From NCBI GenBank assembly GCA_016841325.1, contig JAENZJ010000012.1:1-64000 (forward strand): a stretch of 64,000 nucleotides of DNA, in the 5' to 3' direction. The notes beneath the pieces were generated by a model, which searched no databases, had not been told where the DNA came from, and worked only from the letters and a program-made list of their open reading frames with translations. Position numbers and translations under genes: made by a program. Origin of the DNA: Thermincola carboxydiphila (GTDB lineage Bacteria; Bacillota; Thermincolia; Thermincolales; UBA2595). This document shows, piece by piece, positions 2,540-20,476 of this stretch (its first letter is position 1; each line of letters opens with the position of its first letter).

Positions 2540-3655
2540 TTATCCGATACACCTTTCGGGGTAACCTTCCCCAGCCCTGGATGATACCGGGAGCTTCACA
2601 GCAATTATCCCGTCACGGACTTCCCAATAACCGGTTACCTGAAAACCATAACTCTTTGCCACTTTTTTTAACGCATCAACTTTTTTTACACTGAGAGGAC
2701 TGGCTGCAATAGTACAGTAACCATTTTTCCCCAATGCCATGATCAGGGTTTCAGCCATCCATGGATATACTATTCCTGCCGGCAGGCCCCATTGCTCAGA
2801 TACACCTTTAGTACCCGGCACCTCCACAAGTCCTCCGTCAATAATTATCAGATCATTTCGTATTGAGGCCATATTCTGCAGGGCCCTTAATGAAACAACA
2901 TCCTTAAGAGATACGCCGGTACCCCTGATAAAACATATAATCGCACCTGTTTTGAAGTCATCAGGCCTTATTTCCGGTCCGGTAAAAGACGCATCTATTA
3001 AAACAAGGTCAGAAACCCCGAGAACCTGTTGAATATCTGTGCCTATTTTAACCGGCAAACCCGTGTCATATAAAATAGTATTTGTCATCTGGCGAAGCTG
3101 TGCTATATTATCACCTGCCAATATCAGGTTTTTTACATCCCGGGCCAGAATGGCTGCACAAATGCTTCCGGCACAACGTGAGGCTCCCACAACAGCGACC
3201 GTTATCCGGTCCGGGTCATAACCCCTTGTGGCAGCCGCCAGTTTTGCACCTTCAAGTGCAGCCAAAAGATTATAAGTATGGCCAAACGTAATTCTATGTT
3301 GACTACCGTCCCCCACAATTAACTCCCCAGGACCCAATGCAGCCGGAATAAAGCCCCCGAGCCCGATTATTTCTGCTCCCAGCTTCCGGGCTGCCTTTCC
3401 GGCTTCAATAATTCTTTTTAACACCAGTTTCCTCGATATGCCGGTAATTTGTGATTCTGTTAAAGGGCAGGTGACCATCCACCCGCGGGCACAGTTGCCC
3501 TCATTTAATTTTATTATAAGTTCTGAGGACTTAAAAGGAGGACTGTATTTTGACATCTGTTTTATAAGGATATGGGGAAAATATCCGGCCAGGGGATAAA
3601 GCCTGCGCAAATCATCAATATCAACAGGATGGTTAATAAAGGCAAACCTTTCCAT
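2540..3655 (-). CDS. Acyl-ACP-reductase-like protein lacking the catalytic Cys
   Basis: 371 residues related to cyanobacterial fatty acyl-ACP reductase (AAR) and to the C-terminal half of the 900-residue fusion at 15102-17804. Shared features are the start FAFINHP, the IGLGGF block (97-102), a Rossmann segment (153-163), IIDGGLVEVP (271-280) and the AET block (301-303). Two key positions differ: the Rossmann glycine motif reads GASRCAG instead of GATGxIG, and the position of the AAR catalytic Cys (two residues before the conserved A/S-E) holds Trp299. It may therefore bind a nucleotide or acyl group without making an acyl-enzyme, or have another activity. The ATG follows AGGAGG. It is last of a three-gene set with the 3669 and 4642 genes. 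Annotation pipelines may call it shikimate dehydrogenase-like. Confidence 0.7.
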   Translation of the reverse strand: MERFAFINHPVDIDDLRRLYPLAGYFPHILIKQMSKYSPPFKSSELIIKLNEGNCARGWMVTCPLTESQITGISRKLVLKRIIEAGKAARKLGAEIIGLGGFIPAALGPGELIVGDGSQHRITFGHTYNLLAALEGAKLAAATRGYDPDRITVAVVGASRCAGSICAAILARDVKNLILAGDNIAQLRQMTNTILYDTGLPVKIGTDIQQVLGVSDLVLIDASFTGPEIRPDDFKTGAIICFIRGTGVSLKDVVSLRALQNMASIRNDLIIIDGGLVEVPGTKGVSEQWGLPAGIVYPWMAETLIMALGKNGYCTIAASPLSVKKVDALKKVAKSYGFQVTGYWEVRDGIIAVKLPVSSRAGEGYPERCIG

Positions 3656-3668
3656 TAAGGTGTTCCTC

Positions 3669-4586
3669 CTAACCGGCCAACTCTTCCTTAAGATTAAGGA
3701 CCCTGGGTCTAAACCCTACACTCTCCAGCAGGTCTGAATATTCCTCAGGCAGCATTGAATCAGGATTCCGGCCTGACAATGCAATCAACACTCCCTCCAT
3801 AACATTGGTCCCAAAGGACCTGCCATTGAGCTCAGGAGTTGTTGTAATTAGCTGCCTGATTCCCCTTTCTTTCAACAATTGTATGTCTCTTTGGGTTACA
3901 GTATTCGTAATAATACATTTACCGGACAAATTTTCGGGCATATACCTCCTGATAAAATGAAAATCCCCCGCTATAATGTCAGCCCGCTCATAGTAGCTAC
4001 TATACCTGGGAGTCTGATAGTCCTGTTTGCCACCCGTCGGATAAAGTATTTTAAAAGGAAGTTTTACAATAATCGGTGCAATTATTCTGGCTATCCTTTC
4101 CAATGATGTAATTGAGGTAATGCTAACAGGGAGTCCCAGGGCGAATATCAGGTCACCAAAGGTCATATCGGCTCCGGCTTCCGCAAGGCTTTCAGCCATA
4201 CCAAACCTGTCCACCGCACAGACCATTAATACCTTTTTGTTTGCGAATACCATTCCCAATTCGTTTTGTAAATATGCAATTACTTTTCGCTCCAGAGTGT
4301 TTTTCAAACCACTGCCATCGACGACCGGAGATTTCTTTGCCGCCCGGGCAATTCTTTTGGCATCCCTGAAAGTATACCGCCTGGCGCCGGCATAGATATA
4401 CAGGTCAATTCCACCAAGCCCAAAAGCATCCACCTGTCCATCATATTTTTTGATAAGTTCAATGGCTTTTTCAATATCTCCGTCAGTCCCTATTCGTTCA
4501 ATAAGGATCCTCTGTCCCAGTATCTCTGTTTCCACCGTATGGTCACGGACTGAAGACCCCAAACTGACACTCATAACCCGTTTCAA
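3669..4586 (-). CDS. 'Quinate 5-dehydrogenase' family protein, function uncertain
   Basis: A 305-residue protein of a family usually named quinate 5-dehydrogenase in clostridial genomes; I know of no biochemical proof for that name. Visible features are DAFGLGGIDLYIY, a conserved block (SPVVDGSG), and a central segment KKVLMVCAVDRFGMAESLAEAG resembling a Rossmann turn but without a classic GxGxxG. The start is TTG at 4586, 8 bases after AGGAGG; an in-frame ATG lies 4 codons later. It stands between a probable regulator and an AAR-like protein, suggesting one pathway or one sensing function. No signal peptide or membrane segment. Confidence 0.6.
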   Translation of the reverse strand: MKRVMSVSLGSSVRDHTVETEILGQRILIERIGTDGDIEKAIELIKKYDGQVDAFGLGGIDLYIYAGARRYTFRDAKRIARAAKKSPVVDGSGLKNTLERKVIAYLQNELGMVFANKKVLMVCAVDRFGMAESLAEAGADMTFGDLIFALGLPVSITSITSLERIARIIAPIIVKLPFKILYPTGGKQDYQTPRYSSYYERADIIAGDFHFIRRYMPENLSGKCIITNTVTQRDIQLLKERGIRQLITTTPELNGRSFGTNVMEGVLIALSGRNPDSMLPEEYSDLLESVGFRPRVLNLKEELAG

Positions 4587-4641
4587 AACAACGTCCTCCT
4601 TTAAAAACAACCTTTTGACCGATTGCTTTATAGCTATTACT

Positions 4642-5193
4642 TTACTCTTTTGCCATACTCCCATTAGGTTTTTTCTTGACGGCCTGTAAAATTTTCAGTA
4701 ATTCTTCGGTGGGCACATACTTGTCTTCTTTTATTGGGGACTCCCCGATTTCTATACCCACCACTTCCTGGTCGAGAATTGCTTCGATTGTCCTGATCCG
4801 CCGGTTTGAGCCAATAACCACCACTACATCAAAGGACCGGGCTTCAGCAATCAAATCAAGGATTTTATTCAAAAGGCCAATCCCATCATCTTTTTTAACA
4901 AAGTCCCAGCGTTCATTTTCAGTCATGATTAAGGTGAATTCAATACCTTCCCTGTGCAATAAGTCCATTATCTCACCCTTATTCTTAACAGGAAATCCGA
5001 TAACGGCTATCCGGTTGCCTTTGCGCACCTCTCCCAGGGCTTCCAGCCTGGATATAAAGGTACGGTCAATCCCCAATCGGTCGGCAACTTTTTGCTGGGC
5101 AATTCCCGAACTTCGCATCTCCAGTATCAGGTCAATGGCTTTGGATATCTTCCTGCGGCTTAGAATTTTACCGCCGATTCTCAGCAGATCCAT
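4642..5193 (-). CDS. Helix-turn-helix regulator with Rossmann-like C-terminal domain
   Basis: 183 residues. An N-terminal Xre/KorB-like helix-turn-helix (about 27-56, with QQKVADRLGIDRTFISRLE) is followed by a domain with alternating strands and helices (IAVIGFPVKN, FDVVVVIGSNRRI) that could sense a small molecule. The ATG at 5193 has AAGGAG upstream; the longer reading frame to 5226 lacks a good site. First gene of the set with the two genes downstream. A promoter and an inverted repeat lie just upstream, so autoregulation is plausible. The ligand is unknown. Confidence 0.7.
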   Translation of the reverse strand: MDLLRIGGKILSRRKISKAIDLILEMRSSGIAQQKVADRLGIDRTFISRLEALGEVRKGNRIAVIGFPVKNKGEIMDLLHREGIEFTLIMTENERWDFVKKDDGIGLLNKILDLIAEARSFDVVVVIGSNRRIRTIEAILDQEVVGIEIGESPIKEDKYVPTEELLKILQAVKKKPNGSMAKE

Positions 5194-5240
5194 AATGCTA
5201 CTCCTTACTGAAAATATTTTAACCAATTTTCGGCAAATTT

Positions 5241-6373: not shown

Positions 6374-7144
6374 CTAATCCCCTTTATTGCGTTCATAAAT
6401 AATCCTTAGCCCTTCCAGGGTTAAGTTGGAGTTTATGGTATCAATCATTCCTGACTCATTGCTGATAAGTTCTGCAAGTCCACCGGTAGCAACAACATAA
6501 GCTTTTCCGCCCATCTCTTTCTTCATCCGGCTTATAATTCCATCCGTCTGGCCTACAAAACCGTATACTATCCCTGACTGCATACTGGTCACTGTATTTT
6601 TCCCAATGACTGTTTTGGGTTTTGATAGTTCAATTCTGGGCAGTTTGGCCGCTTTTGTATAAAGGGCTTCTGTCGAGATACCGATACCCGGAGCTATTGC
6701 ACCGCCAAGGTATGCACCATCACCCGATATCGCGTCAAAGGTTGTTGCCGTGCCGAAGTCAACCACGATCAAGGGACCCCCATATAGCTCATAAGCCGCA
6801 ATGGCATTAACTATCCTGTCTGCACCTACCTCCCGGGGATTATCATATCTTATGGGCATGGCAGTCTTTACTCCGGGGCCCACCACCAAAGGCCTGATCC
6901 CAAAATACTTTATAGACATACTTTCCAGGGCCGACATGACTGTTGGCACCACGGAAGAAATAATCATCGCCTTTACTTCCCTGCAGTTGACACCCGAATA
7001 ATCAAAAAGCATGCTTATCTGTAAACCATATTCGTCAGCGGTCTTATCCTTGTTTGTAGAAATCCGCCAGCTCCTCACCAGATTTTTTCCCTTGAAAACA
7101 CCCAATACTATATTGGTGTTCCCGACATCAAGGACCACCAGCAT
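6374..7144 (-). CDS. coaX: Type III pantothenate kinase
   Basis: Phosphorylates pantothenate, the first step of coenzyme A synthesis. The 256-residue protein has the ASKHA-fold marks of CoaX: DVGNTN (phosphate loop, residues 6-11), [14 protein letters not shown] and GIGISTEAL. It lies upstream of dusB with a 14-base gap. The panBCD genes at about 23-25 kb feed the same pathway, though they are not in the same operon. Confidence 0.95.
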
Positions 7145-7206
7145 ATCCAGCCACCTTCTTCCCGAATAATTGTATTATTTACAGTTTGCCAGACTAAATT
7201 ATACCA

Positions 7207-7234
7207 CAAACAACAAAACTCCCGAAGGAGTTTT
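7207..7234 (-). terminator. Terminator after the CheX-like gene
   Basis: AAAACTCC-CGAA-GGAGTTTT, a perfect 8-bp stem, with TTTTGTTGTTT following on the minus strand. Confidence 0.8.
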
Positions 7235-7266
7235 GGGGTAATTGATATTTAACCACTGTTCTCATG

Positions 7267-7740
7267 TTACCTGTTGTTCTCCCTGAGAGCAACACCGACC
7301 TCGATTTCGCCAAATTCGGTAATCAGTGGAATCTGCAGCCTCTTTATATTAATAGTTGAAATTATTACCCCGCGGCCCGATACCACCGTCGGAGGAGCCA
7401 GTGTTGAAGGATAACCTGCTTTTTCCAGCTCAGCACTGGCAATACCGGTAATTACATTACCCATCTCGGCAATAGCGCTCTCTACCATCTCGTTAAAAAC
7501 AACCACCCGTTCATCCAATAAGGCAGATACAATGTTCTTTGCAGTTCGTTCAGACATGCCATACATGACGATTCCCTGAATAGCCCCTATCACTCCGATC
7601 AATACAGTAACATCCTGGCAGGTATGTGAAGAAGATTCTATGGTCAACTGCCCTTTTTGCACCGGAATCGCACGTCCGGTTTCTGTTTCCAGGACTTTTA
7701 CGGTAGCATTGACAAAAGGGCTGATAAACTCTACCTTCAA
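7267..7740 (-). CDS. CheX-like chemotaxis phosphatase
   Basis: 157 residues of the CheC/CheX/FliY phosphatase superfamily, single-domain CheX type. CheX dephosphorylates CheY-P; the catalytic Glu and Asn of the ExxN motif are visible as E92 and N95 (AEMGNVI). The family's second half (VSGRGVIISTI, IPLITEFGEIEVGVAL) is complete. Start is TTG 9 bases after AGGAG. It stands alone, closed by its own terminator, with no flagellar or chemotaxis gene in the window, so its partner response regulator must lie elsewhere. It is divergent from the AAA+/VWA operon. Confidence 0.85.
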   Translation of the reverse strand: MKVEFISPFVNATVKVLETETGRAIPVQKGQLTIESSSHTCQDVTVLIGVIGAIQGIVMYGMSERTAKNIVSALLDERVVVFNEMVESAIAEMGNVITGIASAELEKAGYPSTLAPPTVVSGRGVIISTINIKRLQIPLITEFGEIEVGVALRENNR

Positions 7741-7988
7741 ACTTCTTCACTCCTCTCCATTAGGAAGAAGTTTCGACAAAGTTGCCATTTTCCCTTCCTC
7801 AAAACCAAAAGATAACCGATTTTTTTAAAATTTTTGTCATTTTATTAAAGTTCCTTGATTTTACACGTTCAAATACCTTTAAATCTTCAATATTACCATT
7901 CGGCGTATTACTTGTTATCCTGTCCCGGCATTTCAAATTCACTATTTCCCATAAAGGTCACAAAAAATGCACTTCAGACGTTTAACAG

Positions 7989-8018
7989 TTGCAATCAGGC
8001 TAATATATTGGTTATAAT
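7989..8018 (+). promoter_or_regulatory. Promoter of the AAA+/VWA operon
   Basis: TTGCAA (7989-7994), 18 bases, TATAAT (8013-8018). It lies in the 424-base intergenic stretch 7741-8164 shared with the divergent CheX-like gene. Transcription would start near 8025, giving a leader of about 140 bases. Confidence 0.7.
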
Positions 8019-8050
8019 TAGACATATATCATTAAATAATAAAAATTCCT

Positions 8051-8108
8051 AAAAGTCTGGCCATCTTTCCTTGTTTAGCCGAGTCTTATATGGCTCAGAG
8101 GACTTTTT
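8051..8108 (+). promoter_or_regulatory. Structured leader with terminator-like hairpin
   Basis: AAAAGT (8051-8056) pairs with ACTTTT (8102-8107). Inside, CTG/CAG and GCC/GGC pair with small bulges, closing a large loop that contains a further GAGTC/GGCTC hairpin. The 3' arm ends in ACTTTTT, as in an attenuator. It matches no riboswitch class I recognise. Confidence 0.4.
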
Positions 8109-8164
8109 CCAAAAAATGTTACAGAAGCTTTTTCACAAGCTATTTACAGGCAGGGGGAAAGAAT

Positions 8165-9526
8165 ATGAAATCATATGCTGAGTTAGCGCGACATGACGGT
8201 AATGAAACCTTATTTGAGGTTGTTGAAATGGGGATTATTTCGATGCTCTGGAATATCCCTCTCCATATCCATGCGGAAGGACTAAGGGGCACCGGAAAGA
8301 CAACAATCATGAGGGCTGCACACCAGATCATGCCTCCTATTGTCCGTATTAAGAACTGCCTGTACAACTGCGACCCCGAGGCCCCACATTGCCCCAACCA
8401 TAGGCACCTGTCAGCGGAGGAAATCTCAGCCTTGGGGGCCGAAACCGTACCCCGCCCGTTTCTTGAGATTTCACATTCAGCGAAAATAGGTACCATTGCG
8501 GGAAGTATTGACCTGCAGAAGATAACCAATTCTTCAAATCCCGAAGCTGCACTGTTGCCGGGAATTATCCCCCAGGCACACAGAGGAATTATTTTTATAG
8601 ATGAAATCAACCGCCTGGCTGATACTTCACCTGAAATAACCGATATCCTGCTTGATGCCATGGGAACTAAACCGGGCCGGGTCCAAATTGAAGAAACAGG
8701 ACTGCCACTGGTTGAGCTCCCTGTGCAGGTTTCAGTATGGGCCGCCTCAAACCCCGATGAAGAACCGGGCCCCCTTCAGGAAATCAGGCGCCAGCTGTCT
8801 GACAGGTTTGACCTGGTTGTAGAAATGGGACGGACCACCAGTCCTGATGCCATTGCAGATATCCTGATTCAGAGTGAGCTCAGGAGGCTGGGTAAAAAAG
8901 AAGTCCTGCAAAAGGGTATTGATAATTCTGCCCGGCTCCGCAAAGAACTGGAGACCCTGGCCAAAAAGTTCGAGTCACTGACTATGCCGGACTTTTTACG
9001 AAACTACATAGCCCGGCTCTATGTCAAGTATAATCTTGAAAGTTTTCGGGCCATTGAAGCCATCCAGCACACTGCTCTGCTGCACTGTGCCCTAAGGGGG
9101 CGGCAGCAGCCTCTGGTAAGTGATATTCTTAAGGTAATCCCCCTGGCTCTGAGACATCGTGTCGAAACTGAAACCCTGACCAAGATTATGAACTCTTCAG
9201 ACTCAAAACCGAGTACAAATGACAATACTCCTTCACCAAGTCTTGGTTCACAACAAAAAAAAAAGAAACCAGAGACTTTTTCTTCCGAGTATGAACCGGC
9301 GGTCAATGATGGCATAATGAATGATAACTCCGATTACGACAGTGCCGGTAAAGAAGGAAAATCGATTTTTCAGCCCCTCAAACAGTTATTCTCCGGCAAA
9401 CAAAGCAAGGCTGAAACCGGGGAATCCGATAATGACCCAATTAAAGCATCTCCGCTGAATAAGGCCAAAAGGCTGCCTGATCTGAATCTTGACGAACTTG
9501 TAAAATCAGAGGGTGATTTTAAATAA
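8165..9526 (+). CDS. AAA+ ATPase, BchI/MoxR type
   Basis: 453 residues. The AAA+ core has Walker A GLRGTGKTT (39-47), Walker B GIIFIDE (141-147), sensor-1 Asn196 (AASNPDEE) and a likely arginine-finger segment RRQLSDRF (208-215). Between Walker A and B is a Cys/His cluster: C65, C69, C76, H79, H81. It resembles the chelatase-I branch but no bchH/cobN-type gene is present. Residues about 340-435 are low-complexity, charged and probably disordered. The ATG at 8165 follows GGGGGAAAG; a longer frame from 8090 lacks such a site. First gene of an operon with three VWA proteins; AAA+/VWA pairs normally form ring-plus-adaptor complexes that remodel a target protein. The target here is unknown. Confidence 0.88.
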   Translation: MKSYAELARHDGNETLFEVVEMGIISMLWNIPLHIHAEGLRGTGKTTIMRAAHQIMPPIVRIKNCLYNCDPEAPHCPNHRHLSAEEISALGAETVPRPFLEISHSAKIGTIAGSIDLQKITNSSNPEAALLPGIIPQAHRGIIFIDEINRLADTSPEITDILLDAMGTKPGRVQIEETGLPLVELPVQVSVWAASNPDEEPGPLQEIRRQLSDRFDLVVEMGRTTSPDAIADILIQSELRRLGKKEVLQKGIDNSARLRKELETLAKKFESLTMPDFLRNYIARLYVKYNLESFRAIEAIQHTALLHCALRGRQQPLVSDILKVIPLALRHRVETETLTKIMNSSDSKPSTNDNTPSPSLGSQQKKKKPETFSSEYEPAVNDGIMNDNSDYDSAGKEGKSIFQPLKQLFSGKQSKAETGESDNDPIKASPLNKAKRLPDLNLDELVKSEGDFK

Positions 9527-9533
9527 CCAAACC

Positions 9534-9554
9534 GGGCCGGGATTATCCCGGCCC
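9534..9554 (+). terminator. Strong hairpin between the AAA+ and first VWA gene
   Basis: GGGCCGGGA-TTA-TCCCGGCCC is a perfect 9-bp stem. The T tract (ATCTTTTTT) starts about 8 bases later, so it may give only partial termination or act as an mRNA processing or stability element. That could set the ratio of ATPase to VWA proteins. Confidence 0.5.
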
Positions 9555-9666
9555 CTGTTGTATCTTTTTTCATGCCAATATGGGAAAACACAAAGAGTCC
9601 AGGGCTTAAAAACCAGAACATAGTGGAAGATTTTTCTTTTTTAATGCCTGAAGGGAGGGTCAGTTT

Positions 9667-11424
9667 ATGGATAGTTCAGAAAGACACCAGAGAATGACTC
9701 TGGAAAATTACCTCGGTGCATATTTCCAAAAAAATCAGGGTGTCAGGCTGGGTGAAACAACTGTGATCAGCCATAAGGTACACGGCAATGACCCCAAGGC
9801 TCCCGGTGAGATCCGCATTTATACCGACACAGATGCAGGACGGTATTATTTGAAGAACCCTGAAGAAAACATGGTCCTTCACATGGATGTATTCCATGAG
9901 CCGGCCTGTCTGGACCCGGTTTACGTAGCCAGGCGGGTCTGGCAGGGTATTGATAAATACTTTGTCCAACTCCGTAACGAAAACCGCTCCCTCTTTACGC
10001 AGGAGAAAATCAAAGAACTGTCGAAAATGATGGTACAGAATATTGTTATTAGGACCTCCGGCGGGTCGGGGACTGTTTGGGAACTGGCCAACCATAAAGG
10101 CCGACTGGAGCACGATAAAGCCGGAAAACCTGAAACTCATGTCCACCTCCTGTTTTCGGTTGCTCCCAAATATTATGACAGCATTATATTTATCGCCGAT
10201 GCCGTAGAACAGGCAATACTCAAACACGGCTTCGAAATCAGGCGAGTCGAAAAGATAATCCACTGTGAAAAAGACTCTGACCCCGGTCCGGGCTTTGGAA
10301 TAGGGTTTGGCCTGCCGGGTTTTAATATACCCGAAGCGCTTCAGCACCGCCGCCACCAGAACCGTCTCCAGATTATCATGAACCTGGCGAGCGCTTTCGG
10401 GAGTATTGAGGATGCTGCCAGGTTCCTTGAATCCCTTACCACAACAGGCAATATCTTTCTGGGGTCATTTGCCAAAAAGCATACTGACGGCGGGTTGAAA
10501 CAGACCCTTTTGGACCTTTCAAATGCCAACATTGTGCAAAAGAAAAAGTTCGCCTTTGTCCTCACTGAAGAGGGTCAGACACTAAAGAATTTCATCAGGG
10601 GCCATCAAAAGGAACTTGAGGCCCAGGTCAGGAAGTCTATCCGCCGTTACCAGATAGTCCGCCACGATTACCGGACATACCGAAATTCTGATTTGAAATC
10701 ACGCAAGAGTCACCTGACTGACCATAAAAAGGTGCTTAATTCGGCCAACAATGCATGGATCACTGATATTGCTATCCCGGAAACTGTTGTCAGTGCATCT
10801 GCGCGAAGTTTTCTTGAAGGCAGTCCGCGAATGACAGTTACTAAAAAGGATTTCAAAGTATTTGGCAAAAAATCATTTGCCCCTATTGACACCTGTATCT
10901 CCATTGATTGCAGCGGAAGCATGGTCGGGGAAAAAATCAAGGCGGTCTCTTACCTGGCCGAACACTTCCTACTCACCTCCAAAGAAAAGGTCGGGGTGCT
11001 TTCTTTTCAGGAAATGGATGCCCGGGTTGTTGTCCCCTTCACCAAGAGCTACCAGAAGCTTCAGGACGGCCTGCGGTCAATTCATCCCGAAGGACTCACT
11101 CCACTTGCCAAAGGAATTGCTGAAAGCATTAAACTGATTAAAATGAAACGGGCCCGTAATCCCCTGTTGGTACTTATTACGGACGGGATTCCCAACTTCC
11201 CGCTGTGGACTATGGATGCTCAGGATGATGCCCTCAGGGCAGCCAAAATGATTGCCGAGAACCGGATCAGGTTTGTCTGTATCGGGGTAATTCCCAACGA
11301 AACATTTATGAAACAATTAGCTGCAGCAGGGAGAGGAAATCTTTATATTGTTGACGAACTCAATAAAAACAGCCTATTGGATGTTCTCACCAGGGAATGG
11401 GAACAATACAAATACCGTAAATAA
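9667..11424 (+). CDS. VWA-domain protein, tandem copy 1
   Basis: 585 residues. The C-terminal von Willebrand A domain (about 395-580) keeps a complete MIDAS metal site: DCSGS (414-418), T478 in GLTPLAKG and D506 in ITDG. The N-terminal 230 residues form an unrecognised alpha/beta region (LHMDVFHEPA, TSGGSG, ETHVHLLFS, HGFEIRRVEKI). Residues about 235-335 look like a winged-helix-like segment (SNANIVQKKKFAFVLTEEG) leading to a basic helix (VRKSIRR). ATG preceded by GGGAGGG. Closely similar over its whole length to the next two genes. ChlD/CbbO/NorD-type VWA proteins partner with AAA+ rings, so this is probably the adaptor of the upstream ATPase. No membrane segment. Confidence 0.85.
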   Translation: MDSSERHQRMTLENYLGAYFQKNQGVRLGETTVISHKVHGNDPKAPGEIRIYTDTDAGRYYLKNPEENMVLHMDVFHEPACLDPVYVARRVWQGIDKYFVQLRNENRSLFTQEKIKELSKMMVQNIVIRTSGGSGTVWELANHKGRLEHDKAGKPETHVHLLFSVAPKYYDSIIFIADAVEQAILKHGFEIRRVEKIIHCEKDSDPGPGFGIGFGLPGFNIPEALQHRRHQNRLQIIMNLASAFGSIEDAARFLESLTTTGNIFLGSFAKKHTDGGLKQTLLDLSNANIVQKKKFAFVLTEEGQTLKNFIRGHQKELEAQVRKSIRRYQIVRHDYRTYRNSDLKSRKSHLTDHKKVLNSANNAWITDIAIPETVVSASARSFLEGSPRMTVTKKDFKVFGKKSFAPIDTCISIDCSGSMVGEKIKAVSYLAEHFLLTSKEKVGVLSFQEMDARVVVPFTKSYQKLQDGLRSIHPEGLTPLAKGIAESIKLIKMKRARNPLLVLITDGIPNFPLWTMDAQDDALRAAKMIAENRIRFVCIGVIPNETFMKQLAAAGRGNLYIVDELNKNSLLDVLTREWEQYKYRK

Positions 11425-11471
11425 AAATAATTACTTACTACTGTACTCCCCTGCAAAGGAGGGCATAAACC

Positions 11472-13223
11472 TTGGAAAGTTCCGAAAGGCACAAGCGGCT
11501 GACCCTGGAAAACTACCTCTCAGCATATTTCAGGGAAAACCAGGGTGTACGCCTGGGAGAAACCACTGTTCTCAGCCAGAACGTTCACGGAAATGACCCT
11601 AAAACTCCGGGGAAAATTATGATATATACAGACCAGGATGCCGGGAAATTCTACCTGGAAAACCAGGAAGATGACCTGACACTGCACATGGATGTGTTTC
11701 ACGAACCTGCCTCCCTGGACCCCATCTATGTTGCCCGGAGGATATGGCAGGGTGTGGAAAGCTATTTTACCCAGCTAAAAGAACACGAAAACAGGCTGGC
11801 TTATTCTGATGATAAGATAAAGGATTTGACAAGGGAGTTTGTCAAGAGCATCACCCTGAGGACCTCCGGAGGTAAAGGAACTGTGTTTGCCCTGGCCAAG
11901 CGGGAAGTGCAGCTGGTTCCCGAAAAAACCCGAAAACCCGAAACACACGTTCATCTCCTATTCTCTGTAAACCCGGAACACTATGACAGTGTGTTATTTA
12001 TTGCCGATGCCGTAGAACAGGCAATTATGAACCAGGGCTTTGAAATCAGGCGCGTGGAAAAAATCGTGCACTGTGAAAAAGAAATCCAATACAAACCAGG
12101 AATCGGTATAGGTTTCGGACTGCCCGGGTTTAAGTCGCAGGAAGCCCAGGAATACCGGGCTCACCAAAACAGGCTGCAGATAATTATGAATCTGGCAGGT
12201 GCCTTTGGAAGTATCGAAGATGCCTCGCGTTTTCTGGAGTCACTCACCACTGCAGGAAACGTGTTTCTTGGCTCCTTTGCCAAGAAACACACTGATGGTG
12301 ACCTGAAACAGACTCTGCTGGACCTTTCCAACGCAAATATTGTAAAAAAGACCCGGTTTGCTTTTGTCCTTACTGACGAAGGCAAGGCACTGAAGGATTT
12401 TATCAGTCAGCACCAGAAGGAACTGGAAGCCCAGGTGCGCAAATCCATCCGCAGGCATCAAATCGTCAGGCATAATTACCGGACCTTCAAAAATACTGAT
12501 TTGAAGTCTAAAAAAAGCCGGCTTACCGACCATAAAAAAACATCAGAATGGCGGGACCACAGTGATATTGCCATTCCGGAAACGGTGGTCAGGGCTGCTG
12601 CCCGGAGCTTTCTGGAAGGCCAGCCCCGCATCTCCATAAAGAAAAATGATTTCAAGGTCTATGGCAAAAAATCCTTTGCCCCCATTGACACCTGCCTGGC
12701 CATTGACTGCAGTGGCAGTATGGTAGGTGAAAAAATCAGGGCAGTTTCCTATCTGGCGGAACATTTCCTCCTCACTTCCAAGGAAAAAGTCAGTGTCATT
12801 GCCTTTCAGGAGATGAATGCCCGAATTGTGGTCCCATTTACAAAAAACTACCAGAAGCTCCAGGACGGCCTGCGGACTATTCAGCCCGAAGGCCTGACTC
12901 CCCTTGCCAAAGGAATCATGGAGAGTATTGACCATATTAAGGCCAAAAGAGCGCGCAACCCTCTGCTTATCCTGATAACAGACGGTATTCCCAACTTTCC
13001 GTTGTGGACAACTGACGCCCAAAAGGACGCCCTGAAGGCTGCCGAAATGATAGCAGAAAACAAGATCAGGTTTGTCTGCATAGGTGTTATTCCAAATGAG
13101 GAGTTTATGAAAAACCTTGCTGCCAAGGGACGGGGCAACCTCTATGTTGTGGATGAGCTTGACAAAAACAGCCTTGTGGATGTGGTTACCCGGGAATGGG
13201 AACAATATAAATACAGCAAATAG
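11472..13223 (+). CDS. VWA-domain protein, tandem copy 2
   Basis: 583 residues, collinear with copies 1 and 3. The MIDAS residues are intact (IDCSGSM, GLTPLAKG, ITDGIPN). The N-terminal region again has HMDVFHEPA and HGFEIRR-like blocks (here QGFEIRR). Start is TTG, 8 bases after AAGGAGGG, and the resulting N-terminus MESSERHKR matches copy 1 (MDSSERHQR), so the start is well supported. It is 47 bases after copy 1 with its own strong ribosome site. The spacer after the winged-helix-like part differs most between copies (TSEWRDHSDIAIPE here), which might set partner choice. Confidence 0.85.
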   Translation: MESSERHKRLTLENYLSAYFRENQGVRLGETTVLSQNVHGNDPKTPGKIMIYTDQDAGKFYLENQEDDLTLHMDVFHEPASLDPIYVARRIWQGVESYFTQLKEHENRLAYSDDKIKDLTREFVKSITLRTSGGKGTVFALAKREVQLVPEKTRKPETHVHLLFSVNPEHYDSVLFIADAVEQAIMNQGFEIRRVEKIVHCEKEIQYKPGIGIGFGLPGFKSQEAQEYRAHQNRLQIIMNLAGAFGSIEDASRFLESLTTAGNVFLGSFAKKHTDGDLKQTLLDLSNANIVKKTRFAFVLTDEGKALKDFISQHQKELEAQVRKSIRRHQIVRHNYRTFKNTDLKSKKSRLTDHKKTSEWRDHSDIAIPETVVRAAARSFLEGQPRISIKKNDFKVYGKKSFAPIDTCLAIDCSGSMVGEKIRAVSYLAEHFLLTSKEKVSVIAFQEMNARIVVPFTKNYQKLQDGLRTIQPEGLTPLAKGIMESIDHIKAKRARNPLLILITDGIPNFPLWTTDAQKDALKAAEMIAENKIRFVCIGVIPNEEFMKNLAAKGRGNLYVVDELDKNSLVDVVTREWEQYKYSK

Positions 13224-13258
13224 ATCATTTTCCGGTGCTCAAAAGGAGGAAGGGACCC

Positions 13259-15004
13259 TTGGAACGCTCCGAGAGACATCAGCGAATGACCCTGGAACAC
13301 TACCTGACGGCATATTTCAAGCAGAATCAGGGGGTGCGCCTGGGGGAAACCACGGTAATCAGTCATAAAGTGCATGGCAATGACCCCGGAAATCCCGGGG
13401 AGATACATATTTATTCCGATCAGGATGCCGGCAGGCATTATCTGAAAAATTCGTCAGATAACCTGGTGCTCCATATGGATGTTTTCCATGAACCGGCCAT
13501 GCTTAACCCGGTACATATTGCCCGCCGGGTATGGCAGGGACTGGAAACTTACCTCACCAAACTTTTTGAAGAAGAGTCAGAAGACTTGACCAGGGATGAA
13601 ATTACCAACCTGACCAAAAAGCTGACCCAAAACATTATTTTAAGAACATCTGCGGGTTCCGGAAATGTTTTTGAACTGTCAAGCCTAAAAGTAAAACTTA
13701 TCCCGGAAAAACAACAAAAGCCCCAGACCCATGTCCATCTTTTAATATCTATGGAGTCAAGTCATTATGACTCTATTTTATTTATTGCTGACGGAGTCGA
13801 ACAGGCAATACTCAACCAGGGGTTCGAAATCAGGCGTGTGGAAAAAATCGTACACCGCAGGAAGGATATTGAAATAGAATCCGCCGGCGGTATCGGCCTG
13901 GGCCTGCCTGGCTTCAGTTCAGCAGAGGCAGAAAAGTACCGGGCGCACCAGAACCGGCTGCAAATGATCATGAACCTGGCAAGTGCTTTCGGAAGTATAG
14001 AAGATGCCGGCAGGTTTCTGGATACACTTTCTGCAGCCGGAAACATTTTTTTGGGCACCTTTGCCAGGAAACACGGTGACGGTGACCTGAAACAAACCCT
14101 TCTGGACCTTACCAATGCGGGCATGGTCAAAAAAACTGCCTTTGCCTTTGTCCTCACAGAAGCAGGCAAAGGAATGCGGGACTTTATCAGGGAACATCAG
14201 AAGGAACTTGAAGCCCAAGTCCGGAAATCTATCCGCAGACACCAGATAGTGAGGCACAATTACCGTACTTATAGGAATTCGGAACTTAAATCCCGCAAAA
14301 GCCACCTGACAGACCACAAAAAGGTATCCCCGTGGTCAGGGCACAGTGATATTGCAATTCCGGAAACGGTAGTTGCGGCCTCGGCACGCAGTTTTTTGGA
14401 GGGCCAGCCCCGGATGACTGTTAAAAAAAAGGACCTCCGGGTTTTCGGGAAAAAATCCTTTGCTCCTATTGACACCTGTATTGCCATTGACTGCAGTGGC
14501 AGTATGGTCGGTGAGAAGATTAGGGCGGTTTCTTACCTGGCCGAACACTTTCTCCTGACTTCCAAAGAAAAAGTAAGTGTGGTCTCTTTTCAGGAGATGG
14601 AAGCCAGAATAGTTGTCCCCTTTACTAAGAACTATCAGAAACTCCAGGAAGGGCTGCGCATGATCCAGCCCCAGGGACTGACGCCCCTGGCCAAGGGTAT
14701 TGTCACCAGTATTGAACTGATGAAACAAAAAAGGGCCCGCAATCCCCTGCTGGTCCTGATTACAGACGGCATCCCCAACTTCCCGCTATGGACCACCGAT
14801 GCCCAAAAAGATGCCCTGACGGCTGCAAAGCTCATCTCAGAAAACAAAATACGGCTGGTCTGTATCGGTGTTATTCCCAACGAGGATTTTATGCAGGAAC
14901 TGGCATCCATAGGTCAGGGTAATCTCTACATTGTTGATGAACTTGACAAGAATAGCCTTGTTGACGTGGTTACCCGGGAATGGGAACAATATAAGTACAG
15001 TTGA
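13259..15004 (+). CDS. VWA-domain protein, tandem copy 3
   Basis: 581 residues. A longer frame opens at 13235, but TTG at 13259 lies 9 bases after an AGGAGG run and gives MERSERHQRMTLEHYL, matching copies 1 and 2. The MIDAS site is complete (IDCSGSM, GLTPLAKG, ITDGIPN). Residues 201-216 differ from the other copies (RKDIEIESAGGIGLGL). The gene lies 35 bases after copy 2 and 97 bases before the aminotransferase-reductase fusion. Keeping three intact copies argues for distinct roles or a hetero-oligomeric ring rather than drift after duplication. Confidence 0.85.
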   Translation: MERSERHQRMTLEHYLTAYFKQNQGVRLGETTVISHKVHGNDPGNPGEIHIYSDQDAGRHYLKNSSDNLVLHMDVFHEPAMLNPVHIARRVWQGLETYLTKLFEEESEDLTRDEITNLTKKLTQNIILRTSAGSGNVFELSSLKVKLIPEKQQKPQTHVHLLISMESSHYDSILFIADGVEQAILNQGFEIRRVEKIVHRRKDIEIESAGGIGLGLPGFSSAEAEKYRAHQNRLQMIMNLASAFGSIEDAGRFLDTLSAAGNIFLGTFARKHGDGDLKQTLLDLTNAGMVKKTAFAFVLTEAGKGMRDFIREHQKELEAQVRKSIRRHQIVRHNYRTYRNSELKSRKSHLTDHKKVSPWSGHSDIAIPETVVAASARSFLEGQPRMTVKKKDLRVFGKKSFAPIDTCIAIDCSGSMVGEKIRAVSYLAEHFLLTSKEKVSVVSFQEMEARIVVPFTKNYQKLQEGLRMIQPQGLTPLAKGIVTSIELMKQKRARNPLLVLITDGIPNFPLWTTDAQKDALTAAKLISENKIRLVCIGVIPNEDFMQELASIGQGNLYIVDELDKNSLVDVVTREWEQYKYS

Positions 15005-15101
15005 AAATAATTTTATCTTTATTGGACTAAAATATATAATATAAGCATATATTTAATAATGTCGTTTAATTTGGATTATGTACTGAAGGGACTGGATTGT
15101 T

Positions 15102-17804
15102 TTGAGTATGGAATGGCTAAACCCGTCAACAGACAAATTACTGAAAAGTTTTAGGCTGGAAATGGAATATGTGAAAGGTGAGGGGCTATACCTGTATGAC
15201 CGGGAGGGTAACTCATACCTGGACTTCATTTCACAGTACGGGGCTGTCCCCTTTGGGTACAATCCTCCGGAAATAGCCGCTGTGGTACAGGATTTTATGA
15301 ATTCAGGCCTGCCCGCAATGGTTCAGCCATCGGTGCCGATAAAGGCCGCAGAACTTGCCGAAAAGCTGCTTAGACTGGCTCCCGGTGAAATGTCCCAGGC
15401 CACCTTCTGTCAAAGTGGCGCCGAAGCAGTGGAAACTGCCATTAAACTGGCCCGCTCCACAACGGGAAAACAAATAATCCTGTCCACAAAAAACAGCTTT
15501 CACGGTAAAACCATGGGGGCTTTGTCGGCTACGGGGAGGCCTGTTTACCAGGAACCCTTTTTTGCACCTGTAGCCGGATTTGAGACTATCCCCTTTAACG
15601 ATATCGATGCCCTGGAAACCAAGCTGAAAAGTCAGGGAAATGAAATTGCTGCCTTTATTGTTGAACCCATCCAGGGTGAGGGTGGTATCATCATTCCCTC
15701 AGAAGGTTACCTCAAACGCGCCGAGCTTATCTGCCGCAGTTACGGTGTCCTGTTGATTGTTGATGAGGTCCAGACAGGTCTGGGCAGGACCGGCAGTCTT
15801 TTTGCCTGTGAAAGGGAAGGAGTTAACCCTGATATACTGTTACTGTCCAAGGCCCTTGGAGGTGGTCTGGTTCCCCTGGGTGTCTGCCTGAGTTCAAGAC
15901 ATGCCTGGAACGACAGATTTGGCAAACTGCATAGTTCTACCTTTGCCAATAATAACTTCACCTGCTCTGTTGGGCTTGCAGTCATAGACAGGCTGACGGC
16001 AAACGGCCGGTCTCTGGTCAAGTCTGCTGCCACTATGGGTTCATATCTCCTGGACTGCCTCCGCAGGATAGACTCCAGGTTTCCCGGTGTCATCAGGGAA
16101 ATTCGGGGACAGGGACTGATGGCCGGGGTGGAATTCAACGGCTTTGACGGCTCTGAATCTTTTAGCATGCGGTATTTAGCCCGGCAAAGCGGTTTTTCCG
16201 CATTGCTTGCAGGGTATCTGCTGCACATTCATAAGATACGGTGTGCCCCGTTCCTGAACAATTCCATGACTCTCAGGCTGCAGCCATCCCTAACTGTCAG
16301 CAGAGAACAGATCGGACAGGCTCTGGATGCTCTGGAAAATGTCGTGGAAATACTTTATTACCAGGATTACAGTGAGTTATATAGTTACCTTTTAGACCGG
16401 AAAGTTCACGGCAAGATTACTGATTTCAGAACATACCGGAAACCCGTCAGGGGTTCGGCCCTGCTCCCGGGAGAAAAGCCCACTGAAAAATTTGCTTTTC
16501 TCATTCATTATCCGGCAGTGGAGGATATTGTTAAAAACAACCCATCCTTTATCAAACTTAACGAGACCGAGCAGGAAAAACTGCTGGACTGGGAAGCATC
16601 CCTGGATGCTGCGCCGGATGTTATTGTACACCTCCCAGCCTTTAAGTCCAAAGCTGGCAAAATTGCCGAAGGATGGTTAATTGGCATTCCGTACAGCGGA
16701 AAACACCTCGTTAATATGCCCAGGAAAAAAGCGGTATCAGTTTTGACTGAAGCCATTGACCTGGCCAAAGATATGGGTGCGAAAATTGTAGGCCTGGGTG
16801 CCTATACATCTATTGTCAGCCGCGGCGGCGCCGACCTCCAGGGAAAAGGGGTGGCAATTACCTCAGGCAACAGTTTCACTGTGGCCACAGCTTTTGATGC
16901 TTTGATGAAGGGCGCCTCCATGATGGACATTAAACCCGAAAAGGCTACCGGAGCCGTAATCGGGGCCACAGGTGCCATTGGAAGAGTGTGTGCCATTATG
17001 CTGGCCCGGGAAGTTGGCCAACTCTACCTGGTGGGAAACCCGGGCAAAGAGAAAACCAGCCTGCGCAGGCTGGAAAAACTGGCTGATGAAATATATGGAC
17101 ATATATTAACAGATTTGGTCAATGACAATACTTCACTCGACCACCAGAGGGGAATTGCCAAATGGTTGAAGGGTTTTGTCACCTGGCTTAATAATTCTGA
17201 CCCCCGCCAGGCCGAAAAACTCACAAGTGCAGTCGCAGTCAGGGAGGGAACACCTTTTTCACTGTCCCAATTTATCAACAACAACCTGGCACGGTCCGGC
17301 AAATTCAGCACCCCTCCGCTTAAGATTACCGTAAATATCCGGCAGGCGCTGCTGCAGTCAGACCTGGTGATCACGGCATCAAACTCGACATCTGACCTGA
17401 TTATGCCGGAACACCTGAAACAGGGCTGTGTCATATGCGATGTTGCCCGCCCGGCAGACGTCTCCCGGTCTGTACTCAGCAGCCGCAAAGATGTCTTGGT
17501 AATTGAAGGCGGCCTGGTAAAGTATCCTGATAAAATCTGCTTTGGGCAGAATATCGGCTATGCCCCGGGAATGAACCTGGCCTGCCTGTCGGAAACGATG
17601 CTCCTGGCCCTGGAAGGGGATTACCGTGACTTCAGTATCGGGCTGAAACTGCCGGTGGAGGATATTTATTATCTTAAGGGCCTGGCGCGGAAGCATGGCT
17701 TCGAACTTGCCATGCCGCAAAATACAGAGGGTGCCATAACCCCGGAAATAGCAGAAGCAGCCCGGAAAAATGCACGCTGTATTGATGTCCGGAAAAAGGC
17801 CTAA
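15102..17804 (+). CDS. Fusion: class III aminotransferase + acyl-ACP-reductase-like domain
   Basis: 900 residues. Residues about 1-420 are a class III PLP aminotransferase (acetylornithine/GABA type): QSGAEAVETA, VDEVQTGLGRTG (220-231), PLP Lys250 in LSKALGGG. After a linker (about 420-460) comes an AAR-like domain (463-875): FAFLIHYP, GLGAYTS (564-570), TSGNSFT (588-594), the Rossmann motif GATGAIG (621-627), IEGGLVKYP and Cys828 in NLACLSETML, which aligns with the acyl-enzyme Cys of cyanobacterial AAR. An insertion of about 60 residues (650-745) separates Rossmann motif and Cys. TTG start 11 bases after GAAGGG; ATG at 15108 is an alternative. A logical combined reaction is acyl thioester to aldehyde to primary amine (inference). 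Its TAA overlaps the stop of bioY on the other strand. Confidence 0.85.
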   Translation: MSMEWLNPSTDKLLKSFRLEMEYVKGEGLYLYDREGNSYLDFISQYGAVPFGYNPPEIAAVVQDFMNSGLPAMVQPSVPIKAAELAEKLLRLAPGEMSQATFCQSGAEAVETAIKLARSTTGKQIILSTKNSFHGKTMGALSATGRPVYQEPFFAPVAGFETIPFNDIDALETKLKSQGNEIAAFIVEPIQGEGGIIIPSEGYLKRAELICRSYGVLLIVDEVQTGLGRTGSLFACEREGVNPDILLLSKALGGGLVPLGVCLSSRHAWNDRFGKLHSSTFANNNFTCSVGLAVIDRLTANGRSLVKSAATMGSYLLDCLRRIDSRFPGVIREIRGQGLMAGVEFNGFDGSESFSMRYLARQSGFSALLAGYLLHIHKIRCAPFLNNSMTLRLQPSLTVSREQIGQALDALENVVEILYYQDYSELYSYLLDRKVHGKITDFRTYRKPVRGSALLPGEKPTEKFAFLIHYPAVEDIVKNNPSFIKLNETEQEKLLDWEASLDAAPDVIVHLPAFKSKAGKIAEGWLIGIPYSGKHLVNMPRKKAVSVLTEAIDLAKDMGAKIVGLGAYTSIVSRGGADLQGKGVAITSGNSFTVATAFDALMKGASMMDIKPEKATGAVIGATGAIGRVCAIMLAREVGQLYLVGNPGKEKTSLRRLEKLADEIYGHILTDLVNDNTSLDHQRGIAKWLKGFVTWLNNSDPRQAEKLTSAVAVREGTPFSLSQFINNNLARSGKFSTPPLKITVNIRQALLQSDLVITASNSTSDLIMPEHLKQGCVICDVARPADVSRSVLSSRKDVLVIEGGLVKYPDKICFGQNIGYAPGMNLACLSETMLLALEGDYRDFSIGLKLPVEDIYYLKGLARKHGFELAMPQNTEGAITPEIAEAARKNARCIDVRKKA

Positions 17805-18367
17805 AACTCCCTCCGTATTTTTACCTGCCTGGCAACAGGTACAGCTATCACAGATACAAGGGCAGCTTTGACCACATCGGACACAATAAACGGCAGGAAA
17901 ACATACTGGAGCACAGTCCATACTGTCATGGCCTTACCCAGGTAAAAGTTCATCAATACATAAAAATAAGGAACACCAACCAGGTAAAGGATTACTATTC
18001 CGGCACATGATGCAATAAAATAACTCCAGACTGTATTTTTGGCGATCTTCTCAGTTATTTTCCCGGTAACAAAGGCAGCGCCTATAAATCCAAACAGGAA
18101 TCCTGCAGTTGGTTTAATCAGATATGCCAGCCCGCCGTATGGAGGGGTCTGAAAAACCGGGATCCCGGCGAGACCGATGACCAGGTAAACCGTCAGGCTC
18201 AAAGCGCCCAACCTGCCTCCCATGAGGACACCTGCCAGCATGGTGATAAATGGCAGGATACTGAACGGTACCACAACATCCCCGCCAAACCTTAGCATCA
18301 GACCCCCGGCACATGCCAGGGCTGCGAACATGGATACAAAAGCCATCTCCTTGACAGAAATTTTCAT
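17801..18367 (-). CDS. bioY: Biotin transporter substrate-binding subunit BioY
   Basis: 188-residue membrane protein with about six hydrophobic segments; the S-component of an ECF transporter that captures biotin. Family marks are GGDVVVPFSILPF near the N-terminus, the central GGLAYLIKPTAGFLFGFIGAAF block and a short basic C-terminus. ATG start. No EcfA/T genes lie next to it, so it probably uses a shared energising module or acts alone. A BirA operator just upstream (18383-18413) ties it to biotin status. Its stop codon overlaps the stop of the convergent fusion gene in the four bases CTAA. Confidence 0.95.
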   Translation of the reverse strand: MKISVKEMAFVSMFAALACAGGLMLRFGGDVVVPFSILPFITMLAGVLMGGRLGALSLTVYLVIGLAGIPVFQTPPYGGLAYLIKPTAGFLFGFIGAAFVTGKITEKIAKNTVWSYFIASCAGIVILYLVGVPYFYVLMNFYLGKAMTVWTVLQYVFLPFIVSDVVKAALVSVIAVPVARQVKIRREF

Positions 18368-18382
18368 TAAATAACACTCCCT

Positions 18383-18413
18383 TTGTTAACCTGTTTTTTT
18401 TGTTGGTTTACAA
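18383..18413. promoter_or_regulatory. BirA operator upstream of bioY
   Basis: TTGTTAAC (18383-18390), 15 bases, GTTTACAA (18406-18413): inverted half sites with the spacing of Firmicutes BirA boxes. It lies 16 bases before the bioY start, so biotin-loaded BirA should repress bioY. Confidence 0.85.
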
Positions 18414-18470
18414 TGGAAACAAAAAAAACATGTACCTCAAATTAGCTTACAACAATTTCCGTTACAAATT

Positions 18471-19442
18471 TCAGTTACGCAAGGTGACATCCCCTGAAAT
18501 AACCCTCCTCATTGAACCATCTTTTTTCATCAGCAGAAGTGCCCCTTCAGCATCAATGTCAAAGGCTATTCCCTCATCAATGCCATCCAGGGAAGTAACC
18601 CTGACCCAGCGGTTTATGGTAACAGACATTTCCTTCCATAATGACAGAATCCTGTGGAAATGACCCCTGATGAATTCTTCATAAAGGGCATCAAAATGGT
18701 CCAAAATACCGGCCAGCAGGCTGACACGTGAGACTTGGCCGTCACTTTCTGCCGCGATGGAAGTAGCCGTTTCCGCCAGCCCTTCAACCAGCCCGGCACT
18801 GTCAAGATTTACATTGACACCGATACCGACAGCCACATAATTTACCCGGTCCACTTCAGCACTCATTTCTGTAAGTATTCCTGCCAGCTTGCGGCCCGAT
18901 ACCAGGATGTCATTAGGCCACTTTATCCCTGCTTCAATACCGGTTAATTCCCGAACTGCGCTGGCAACGGCAACAGCCGCTACCAGTGTAATTTTAGCGG
19001 CATCAACAGGGTTAATTGGCGGCCTGAGAATTGTGGTAAACCATAACCCCTCCCCCCCGGGGGAGTACCAGTCCCGGCCCAGCCTGCCCTTACCACCGGT
19101 TTGTTCTTCGGCAATCACAACCGTACCGTCCTCTGCACCTTCCCTGGCCAGTTCTTTGGCCAGTTCATTGGTAGAGCCCACTGTTTCACGGTATACTATA
19201 TTCCGCCCTATAAGCCTGCCGGTTAACAATCCTGACAGCTCATGGGTAAACAGACGGTCAGGGACATGCAGCAGCCGGTAACCGATTCTGGAATGAGACT
19301 CGATCCGGTAACCGTCTTCCCTCAGTTTTTTGATATGTTTCCAGACTGCAGTCCGGGATACCCCCAAGACCCGGCTTATTTCTTCCCCGGAAACATATTC
19401 GGGATACCTCTTTTTCAGCAGGGATACAATCTGACCCTTCAT
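18471..19442 (-). CDS. birA: Bifunctional biotin-protein ligase / biotin repressor
   Basis: Group II BirA, 323 residues. An N-terminal winged helix (about 1-65, SGEEISRVLGVSRTAVWKHIKKL) is followed by the ligase core with GKGRLGRDWYSP (the biotinyl-AMP loop), KWPNDI and VGIGVNVN, and a C-terminal SH3-like domain. It activates biotin with ATP, biotinylates carboxylase carriers and represses biotin genes. The ATG at 19442 (GGTGAGGTG upstream) is preferred over the start at 19493. A BirA operator at 19487-19518 suggests self-repression, and bioY downstream carries a second operator. Confidence 0.95.
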   Translation of the reverse strand: MKGQIVSLLKKRYPEYVSGEEISRVLGVSRTAVWKHIKKLREDGYRIESHSRIGYRLLHVPDRLFTHELSGLLTGRLIGRNIVYRETVGSTNELAKELAREGAEDGTVVIAEEQTGGKGRLGRDWYSPGGEGLWFTTILRPPINPVDAAKITLVAAVAVASAVRELTGIEAGIKWPNDILVSGRKLAGILTEMSAEVDRVNYVAVGIGVNVNLDSAGLVEGLAETATSIAAESDGQVSRVSLLAGILDHFDALYEEFIRGHFHRILSLWKEMSVTINRWVRVTSLDGIDEGIAFDIDAEGALLLMKKDGSMRRVISGDVTLRN

Positions 19443-19486
19443 AACACACCTCACCGTGACTTCATTATAAAATATAAAACAGCATA

Positions 19487-19518
19487 TTGTCAACTACTAT
19501 GTTAATTATGGTTAACAA
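19487..19518. promoter_or_regulatory. BirA operator upstream of birA
   Basis: TTGTCAAC (19487-19494), 16 bases, GTTAACAA (19511-19518), centred about 60 bases before the birA ATG. Supports autoregulation of birA. Confidence 0.8.
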
Positions 19519-19577
19519 TTATGCTGCATACTTAAATTCTTAAAATAGCAATAATAACACAGCGCAACTCACAGCCT

Positions 19578-20476
<899 letters not shown>

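Follow-up and report, generated by a model that had tools for sequence, protein, structure and literature searches.

A TamH-type transaminase-reductase fusion beside AAA+ and VWA genes in Thermincola carboxydiphila: probably two functional units

Five genes of Thermincola carboxydiphila, confirmed as open reading frames on the plus strand at positions 8165-17804 of a 64,000-nucleotide stretch of contig JAENZJ010000012.1 (named the window), encode an AAA+ ATPase, three VWA proteins, and a fusion of a transaminase with a thioester reductase. With a probability of about 0.65, we interpret them as two functional units lying side by side by happenstance: a TamH-type enzyme (the fusion) and a MoxR/BchI-BchD-like machine (the AAA+ and VWA proteins). 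The sequence itself shows the domains, the residues of active sites and motifs, the history of duplication, the distribution, and the synteny; substrates, product, promoter use and client binding are our inferences. Matches to Pfam and NCBIfam models (AAA_lid_2/Mg_chelatase, VWA_2, and Aminotran_3) bear out the gene identities given in a first-pass annotation of the window. That annotation had further proposed that the ATPase and the VWA proteins act on the fusion, a proposal that the distribution of the genes does not support.

Distribution, synteny and expression signals of the two units

A sample of 398 genomes of the phylum enabled us to compare the occurrence of the fusion and of the VWA proteins. 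VWA proteins were counted at E <= 1e-50, the weakest matches covering the C-terminal part only, and the fusion was counted, approximately, by frame length as a match to acyl-ACP (acyl carrier protein) reductase (AAR) inside a long open frame (one of the 54 is only 555 aa). Both were found in 24 genomes, the fusion only in 30, VWA only in 93 and neither in 251, meaning that 93 of the 117 VWA genomes are without the fusion and 30 of the 54 fusion genomes are without VWA. Direct adjacency of the fusion to the AAA+/VWA pair was seen solely in G000-G003 (three Thermincola, including the genome analysed here, G000, and one sister genus). Within the family, in G007, a genome that is 61% complete, AAA-VWA-VWA occupies the site with no fusion there, and in G005 the fusion lies in the same neighborhood but beyond dusB, with no VWA match. 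Collectively, the phylum counts and these two genomes show a fusion that is largely not conserved beside the AAA+/VWA genes, the very outcome that the first-pass annotation had named as speaking against its proposal. The fusion and the pair are located on separate contigs in G009, where AAA-VWA is retained at the same site, and in G043, and they are about 1 Mb apart in G017. No AAA/VWA was found within reach of the distant fusions of Bacilli, Rhodobacteraceae, Halanaerobiales, and others. For the pair itself, the AAA gene immediately precedes the VWA gene in nearly all neighborhoods examined, and the pair adjoins recJ-apt-relA in around half of the diverse genomes that were sampled, where secDF frequently flanks it at its other end.

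In Syntrophomonadaceae, an opposite-strand radical-SAM (rSAM) gene and a LytTR regulator typically stand between the fusion and the AAA/VWA genes. AAA/VWA are missing from six Syntrophomonadaceae-type loci for which 7.8 kb or more of sequence is available downstream, and three of these loci (L115, L122, and L128) keep the flanking rSAM and Germane genes.

The two units also appear to carry separate expression signals. The single promoter assigned to all five genes by the first-pass annotation was found as a sigma-A-type element (TTGCAA-18-TATAAT, 7989..8018, plus strand) conserved in three relatives (G001, G002, and G003), and it is ascribed here to the AAA+/VWA genes. A promoter of its own in the preceding gap probably drives the fusion, judging from the promoter-like element GACTAAAAT-N11-GCATATATTTAAT (15025..15057, plus strand), which is conserved in G001-G003. 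The second half of this element can be aligned between G003 and G009, in which an unrelated gene lies upstream, and 0 of 1000 shuffles aligned as well. The conservation of the element in the VWA3-fusion gap, together with this alignment, supports a separate fusion promoter without proving it. Of the layout described in the first-pass annotation, the five plus-strand genes stand and the uniformly short gaps do not, since the gap after the AAA+ gene spans 140 nt and contains a strong hairpin, and the AT-rich gap between VWA3 and the fusion, which holds the promoter-like element, spans 97 nt.

In Syntrophomonadaceae, a conserved 16-bp operator (TGCACA-N4-TGTGCA) is found upstream of the fusion in nearly all loci (L085-L164), with an operator of similar form in L151, L153, and L160. 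Within 1.29 Mb, 44 of the 46 TGCAC-N6-GTGCA sites are positioned at a fusion start and none at an AAA gene. An operator common to the fusion and the AAA/VWA genes was considered and rejected on these counts; of the two other sites, one has no gene start nearby and one precedes a helix-turn-helix (HTH) gene. In L151, a second copy of the operator precedes an HTH gene, whose product is a repressor candidate. The Thermincola gap element differs from this operator.

Several observations weigh against two unrelated units and would instead fit one functional unit, in which the AAA+ protein and its three VWA adaptors activate the fusion, remodel it, load it, or supply it with its acyl-carrier partner, as CbbQ/CbbO does for Rubisco. 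A scan of named genomes gave 31 loci, almost all from Syntrophomonadaceae, in which AAA/VWA share the strand of the fusion and lie 1.9-5.5 kb downstream from it, and the direct adjacency in the four f1 genomes (G000-G003) has the opposite order. The two linkages appear independent and, according to the VWA tree, look like separate linkage events. Co-occurrence across the phylum is mild (Fisher p = 0.015, with kinship ignored). For the promoters, the element upstream of the fusion fits the sigma factor consensus poorly, the direct comparison of the window with G009 does not beat shuffles (81 of 1000 as good), and no terminator was detected in the VWA3-fusion gap, making read-through from VWA3 into the fusion likely. 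Because proximity in two lineages with differing gene order seems to us more than chance would give, a functional link keeps some weight. Set against it are the many genomes holding one partner without the other, the distant placements in G009, G043, and G017, the six loci without downstream AAA/VWA, and the separate promoter elements and intervening rSAM gene. A single unit is thus a minority reading, and a functional link between the fusion and the AAA/VWA genes is possible at the same modest level, unsupported by conservation. In a specific form of it, anaerobic Firmicutes would use a MoxR-type activase to make lipid amines: a dedicated AAA+/VWA machine with diversified adaptors would activate a fatty-amine synthase or feed it acyl-carrier substrates. 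This form seems to us more doubtful again.

A Firmicutes branch of TamH-type fusion enzymes

The fusion gene (15102..17804, plus strand) starts with TTG at 15102, with an in-frame ATG at 15108. Residues 1-415 form a class III aminotransferase (Aminotran_3, E 4.8e-90) with the PLP lysine Lys250 within SKALGGG. Residues ~461-870 resemble acyl-ACP reductases: phmmer matched residues 461-870 to PigE (its N-terminal half, 2e-28) and to the cyanobacterial acyl-ACP reductase 6jzq (E 3e-12). In this C-terminal domain, the nucleotide motif G621xxG624xxG627 and the catalytic Cys828 are both intact. Among 73 full-length fusions, strict regular expressions matched the catalytic Cys in 70, the nucleotide motif in 67, and the PLP-Lys in 66. 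The AlphaFold model of the fusion has a mean pLDDT of 81, and the best Protein Data Bank (PDB) match of its transaminase part is PigE.

Both hallmarks of a TamH-type enzyme are present, an N-terminal aminotransferase with the PLP lysine and a C-terminal AAR-like domain with GxxGxxG and Cys. PtTamH of the tambjamine YP1 pathway of Pseudoalteromonas tunicata has a transaminase at its N-terminus and an AAR-like thioester reductase at its C-terminus; the transaminase converts C7-C14 aldehydes to amines, and coupled to TamA the enzyme turns fatty acid into amine (PMC9594044). By PtTamH's description, the two enzymes share the class III transaminase, a short linker, the AAR-like thioester reductase, the PLP Lys, GxxGxxG, and the catalytic Cys. 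The first-pass annotation knew of no described system with this gene set. Since PtTamH has the same architecture, the class and the domain order of the fusion were already known (PMC9594044). That study reports homologues of PtTamH solely from Pseudoalteromonas and, more distantly, from Chitinimonas, Paucibacter, and Streptomyces (PMC9594044), and our search of the literature on the fusion in Syntrophomonas found no paper. On the sequence comparisons, the fusion adds a new branch, within the Firmicutes, to a known fusion type, and these Firmicutes proteins extend the group considerably. In contrast to PtTamH, its host is an anaerobic member of the Firmicutes, its neighborhood has no recognised pyrrole cluster or TamA-like loading gene, and it has a core-like distribution and, in Syntrophomonadaceae, a dedicated operator. 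PigE of Serratia (prodigiosin; PDB 4ppm; PMC8341465) is homologous in both domains and likewise combines thioester reduction with transamination; however, its reductase is N-terminal and its transaminase C-terminal. The fusion, with this order reversed, scores 569 bits against the PigE model NF053554 (cut-off 850) and falls outside that group. The cyanobacterial acyl-ACP reductase (PDB 6jzq, 6jzu) shares the catalytic Cys and the Rossmann motif with the C-terminal domain, whereas it is a stand-alone enzyme that serves alkane synthesis without a transaminase.

The fusion probably converts fatty acyl chains to fatty amines. In the proposed mechanism, the C-terminal domain would load a fatty acyl group from a carrier thioester, most likely acyl-ACP, onto Cys828, where it would be reduced with NAD(P)H to the aldehyde; the N-terminal PLP domain would then transaminate the aldehyde, probably with glutamate as the donor, to yield a primary fatty amine. 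Since PigE and TamH come from pyrrole/prodiginine-type clusters, the fusion might be a secondary-metabolite enzyme of such a cluster; however, the neighbors examined included no recognisable tam- or pig-like gene, and the fusion occurs in 12 sampled genomes of a Syntrophomonadaceae-type family (f16), a presence that makes it look like a core function. We regard this origin as very improbable. A phage origin was rejected, as none of the phage records covers the greater part of the fusion and the best matches cover the aminotransferase part only.

Related genes were observed in the window and elsewhere. A single-domain protein that resembles acyl-ACP reductases but lacks the catalytic cysteine (PWMAET replaces ACLSET) is encoded at 2540-3655 on the minus strand and is adjoined by a gene without a Pfam match (3669-4664); frames of 360-400 aa similar to it are present in many Firmicutes. 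An HTH-like protein is encoded at 4642-5226 (minus strand), with homologues near the fusion in L148, L149, L151, L152, L153, L157, and G017 (L074). In a Brevibacillus, an Anoxybacillus, and a Bacillus (L134, L135, and L136), the genes after the fusion encode a DUF3419 (BtaA-like) protein, a Glu/Leu-type dehydrogenase, and an MFS transporter, a set that may represent a cluster for a fatty-amine-derived metabolite. In Syntrophomonadaceae (L073, L131, L122, and L091), the fusion is often followed by a gene for a conserved, roughly 140-residue protein that matches DUF1285 weakly and by one for a DegV-type fatty-acid-binding protein.

The AAA+/VWA pair and its tandem duplication

The AAA+ ATPase (8165..9526, plus strand) is BchI/ChlI-like and of the MoxR class, with Walker A (GLRGTGKT), Walker B (IIFIDE), sensor 1 (ASNPDE), an Arg-finger region (LSDRFD), and lid-2, and it carries a Cys/His cluster (NCLYNC..C.NHRH). 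It is followed on the same strand by VWA1 (9667..11424), VWA2 (11472..13223, TTG start), and VWA3 (13259..15004). For VWA3 the listed start is GTG 13235; TTG 13259, with AAAGGAGG upstream, is likelier and agrees with the aligned N-terminus. VWA1 has a C-terminal VWA domain with the complete MIDAS DCSGS..T..D, and around 390 residues ahead of the VWA domain of these proteins have no Pfam match. The model of VWA3 (AlphaFold, mean pLDDT 84, pTM 0.54) was used for a fold search, in which the VWA domains of NorD from NorQ-NorD complexes were among the best matches, with many other VWA domains matching equally; the 50 best matches were all VWA-domain structures, and none concerned the N-terminal part.

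The best NCBIfam model, TIGR02442 (putative cobaltochelatase), is split between the proteins, with positions 31-377 on AAA and ~394-630 on VWA. The partnership of the BchI/BchD and NorQ/NorD kind named in the first-pass annotation gains support from these two halves, the NorD fold match, and the AAA-VWA neighborhoods. By sequence, the genes are a split BchI/BchD-like, MoxR/NorQD-type pair. The split model might also indicate a metal chelatase or a split cobaltochelatase. The scores (161 and 82-88 bits) are far under the curated cut-off of 779, placing the proteins outside the Mg/Co chelatases (BchHID/CobNST), and the CobN/BchH subunit (PF02514) was absent from G000-G003 and G005-G009, that is, from the genome itself and eight of its nine close relatives (present in G004), in a search that was positive in five control genomes. 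Because the genome is without this subunit, the pair is probably not a chelatase, and we rejected that role as highly implausible. NorQ/NorD, BchI/BchD, and RavA/ViaA have in common with the pair an AAA+ protein with lid-2 and an adjacent VWA protein with intact MIDAS; the pair here differs by the long N-terminal region without a Pfam match, by up to three tandem VWA copies, and by having no known client adjoining. The AAA+ ring would work with a VWA adaptor that binds via its MIDAS and would present a client or remodel it. For this client, a housekeeping or membrane protein is the most likely candidate, ahead of the fusion.

The three VWA proteins are 67-71% identical over the N-terminal region and 81-82% identical over the VWA region, with the MIDAS intact, which identifies them on sequence grounds as recent tandem duplicates and not three different parts. 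The number of VWA genes at the shared site varies: the outgroup G009 has a single one, G003 and G007 have two each, G000-G002 have three, and G006 has at least three. In the VWA tree, the Thermincola copies form orthologous sets of three, whereas those of G006 and G007 form separate clusters, which argues for duplication (or gene conversion) more than once. The tandem copies may widen or dose client recognition. A second AAA gene with two VWA genes and no fusion nearby is found in the same genome (G000:C21:28376-31947, L077), near HDOD- and LrgAB-type genes as judged from the related locus L082.

Just 3' of the AAA+ stop, a hairpin with a 9-bp G+C stem (9534..9554, plus strand; z = -3.57) is also found in G001, G002, G003, and G007. 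No covariation is claimed for it because the automatic alignment of short sequences shifted G003 by one column. We infer an attenuator, a processing or a stabilising element, which may set the AAA:VWA ratio. In G001 (L065 5534-5970) and in the matching gap of G002, around 200-300 bp of extra sequence, absent from the window, lies between AAA and VWA1 and is possibly a repetitive or mobile element.

Genomic setting and significance

The five genes form a plus-strand island within a minus-strand run of housekeeping-type genes. One flank carries what we take, from reading the sequence, to be lysS-, greA-, and dusB-like genes, coaX, and CheX (Pfam confirmed CheX only), and the other presumably bioY, birA, nadC, and nadB, named in the same way. 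A search of positions 7000-19600 against Rfam gave no structured RNA match.

In conclusion, fatty-amine synthesis is predicted to be widespread among anaerobic Firmicutes, syntrophic ones included, and to come close to a core trait there. The analysis also describes an old, so far uncharacterised AAA+/VWA pair, which often lies beside recJ-apt-relA and expands by tandem duplication.

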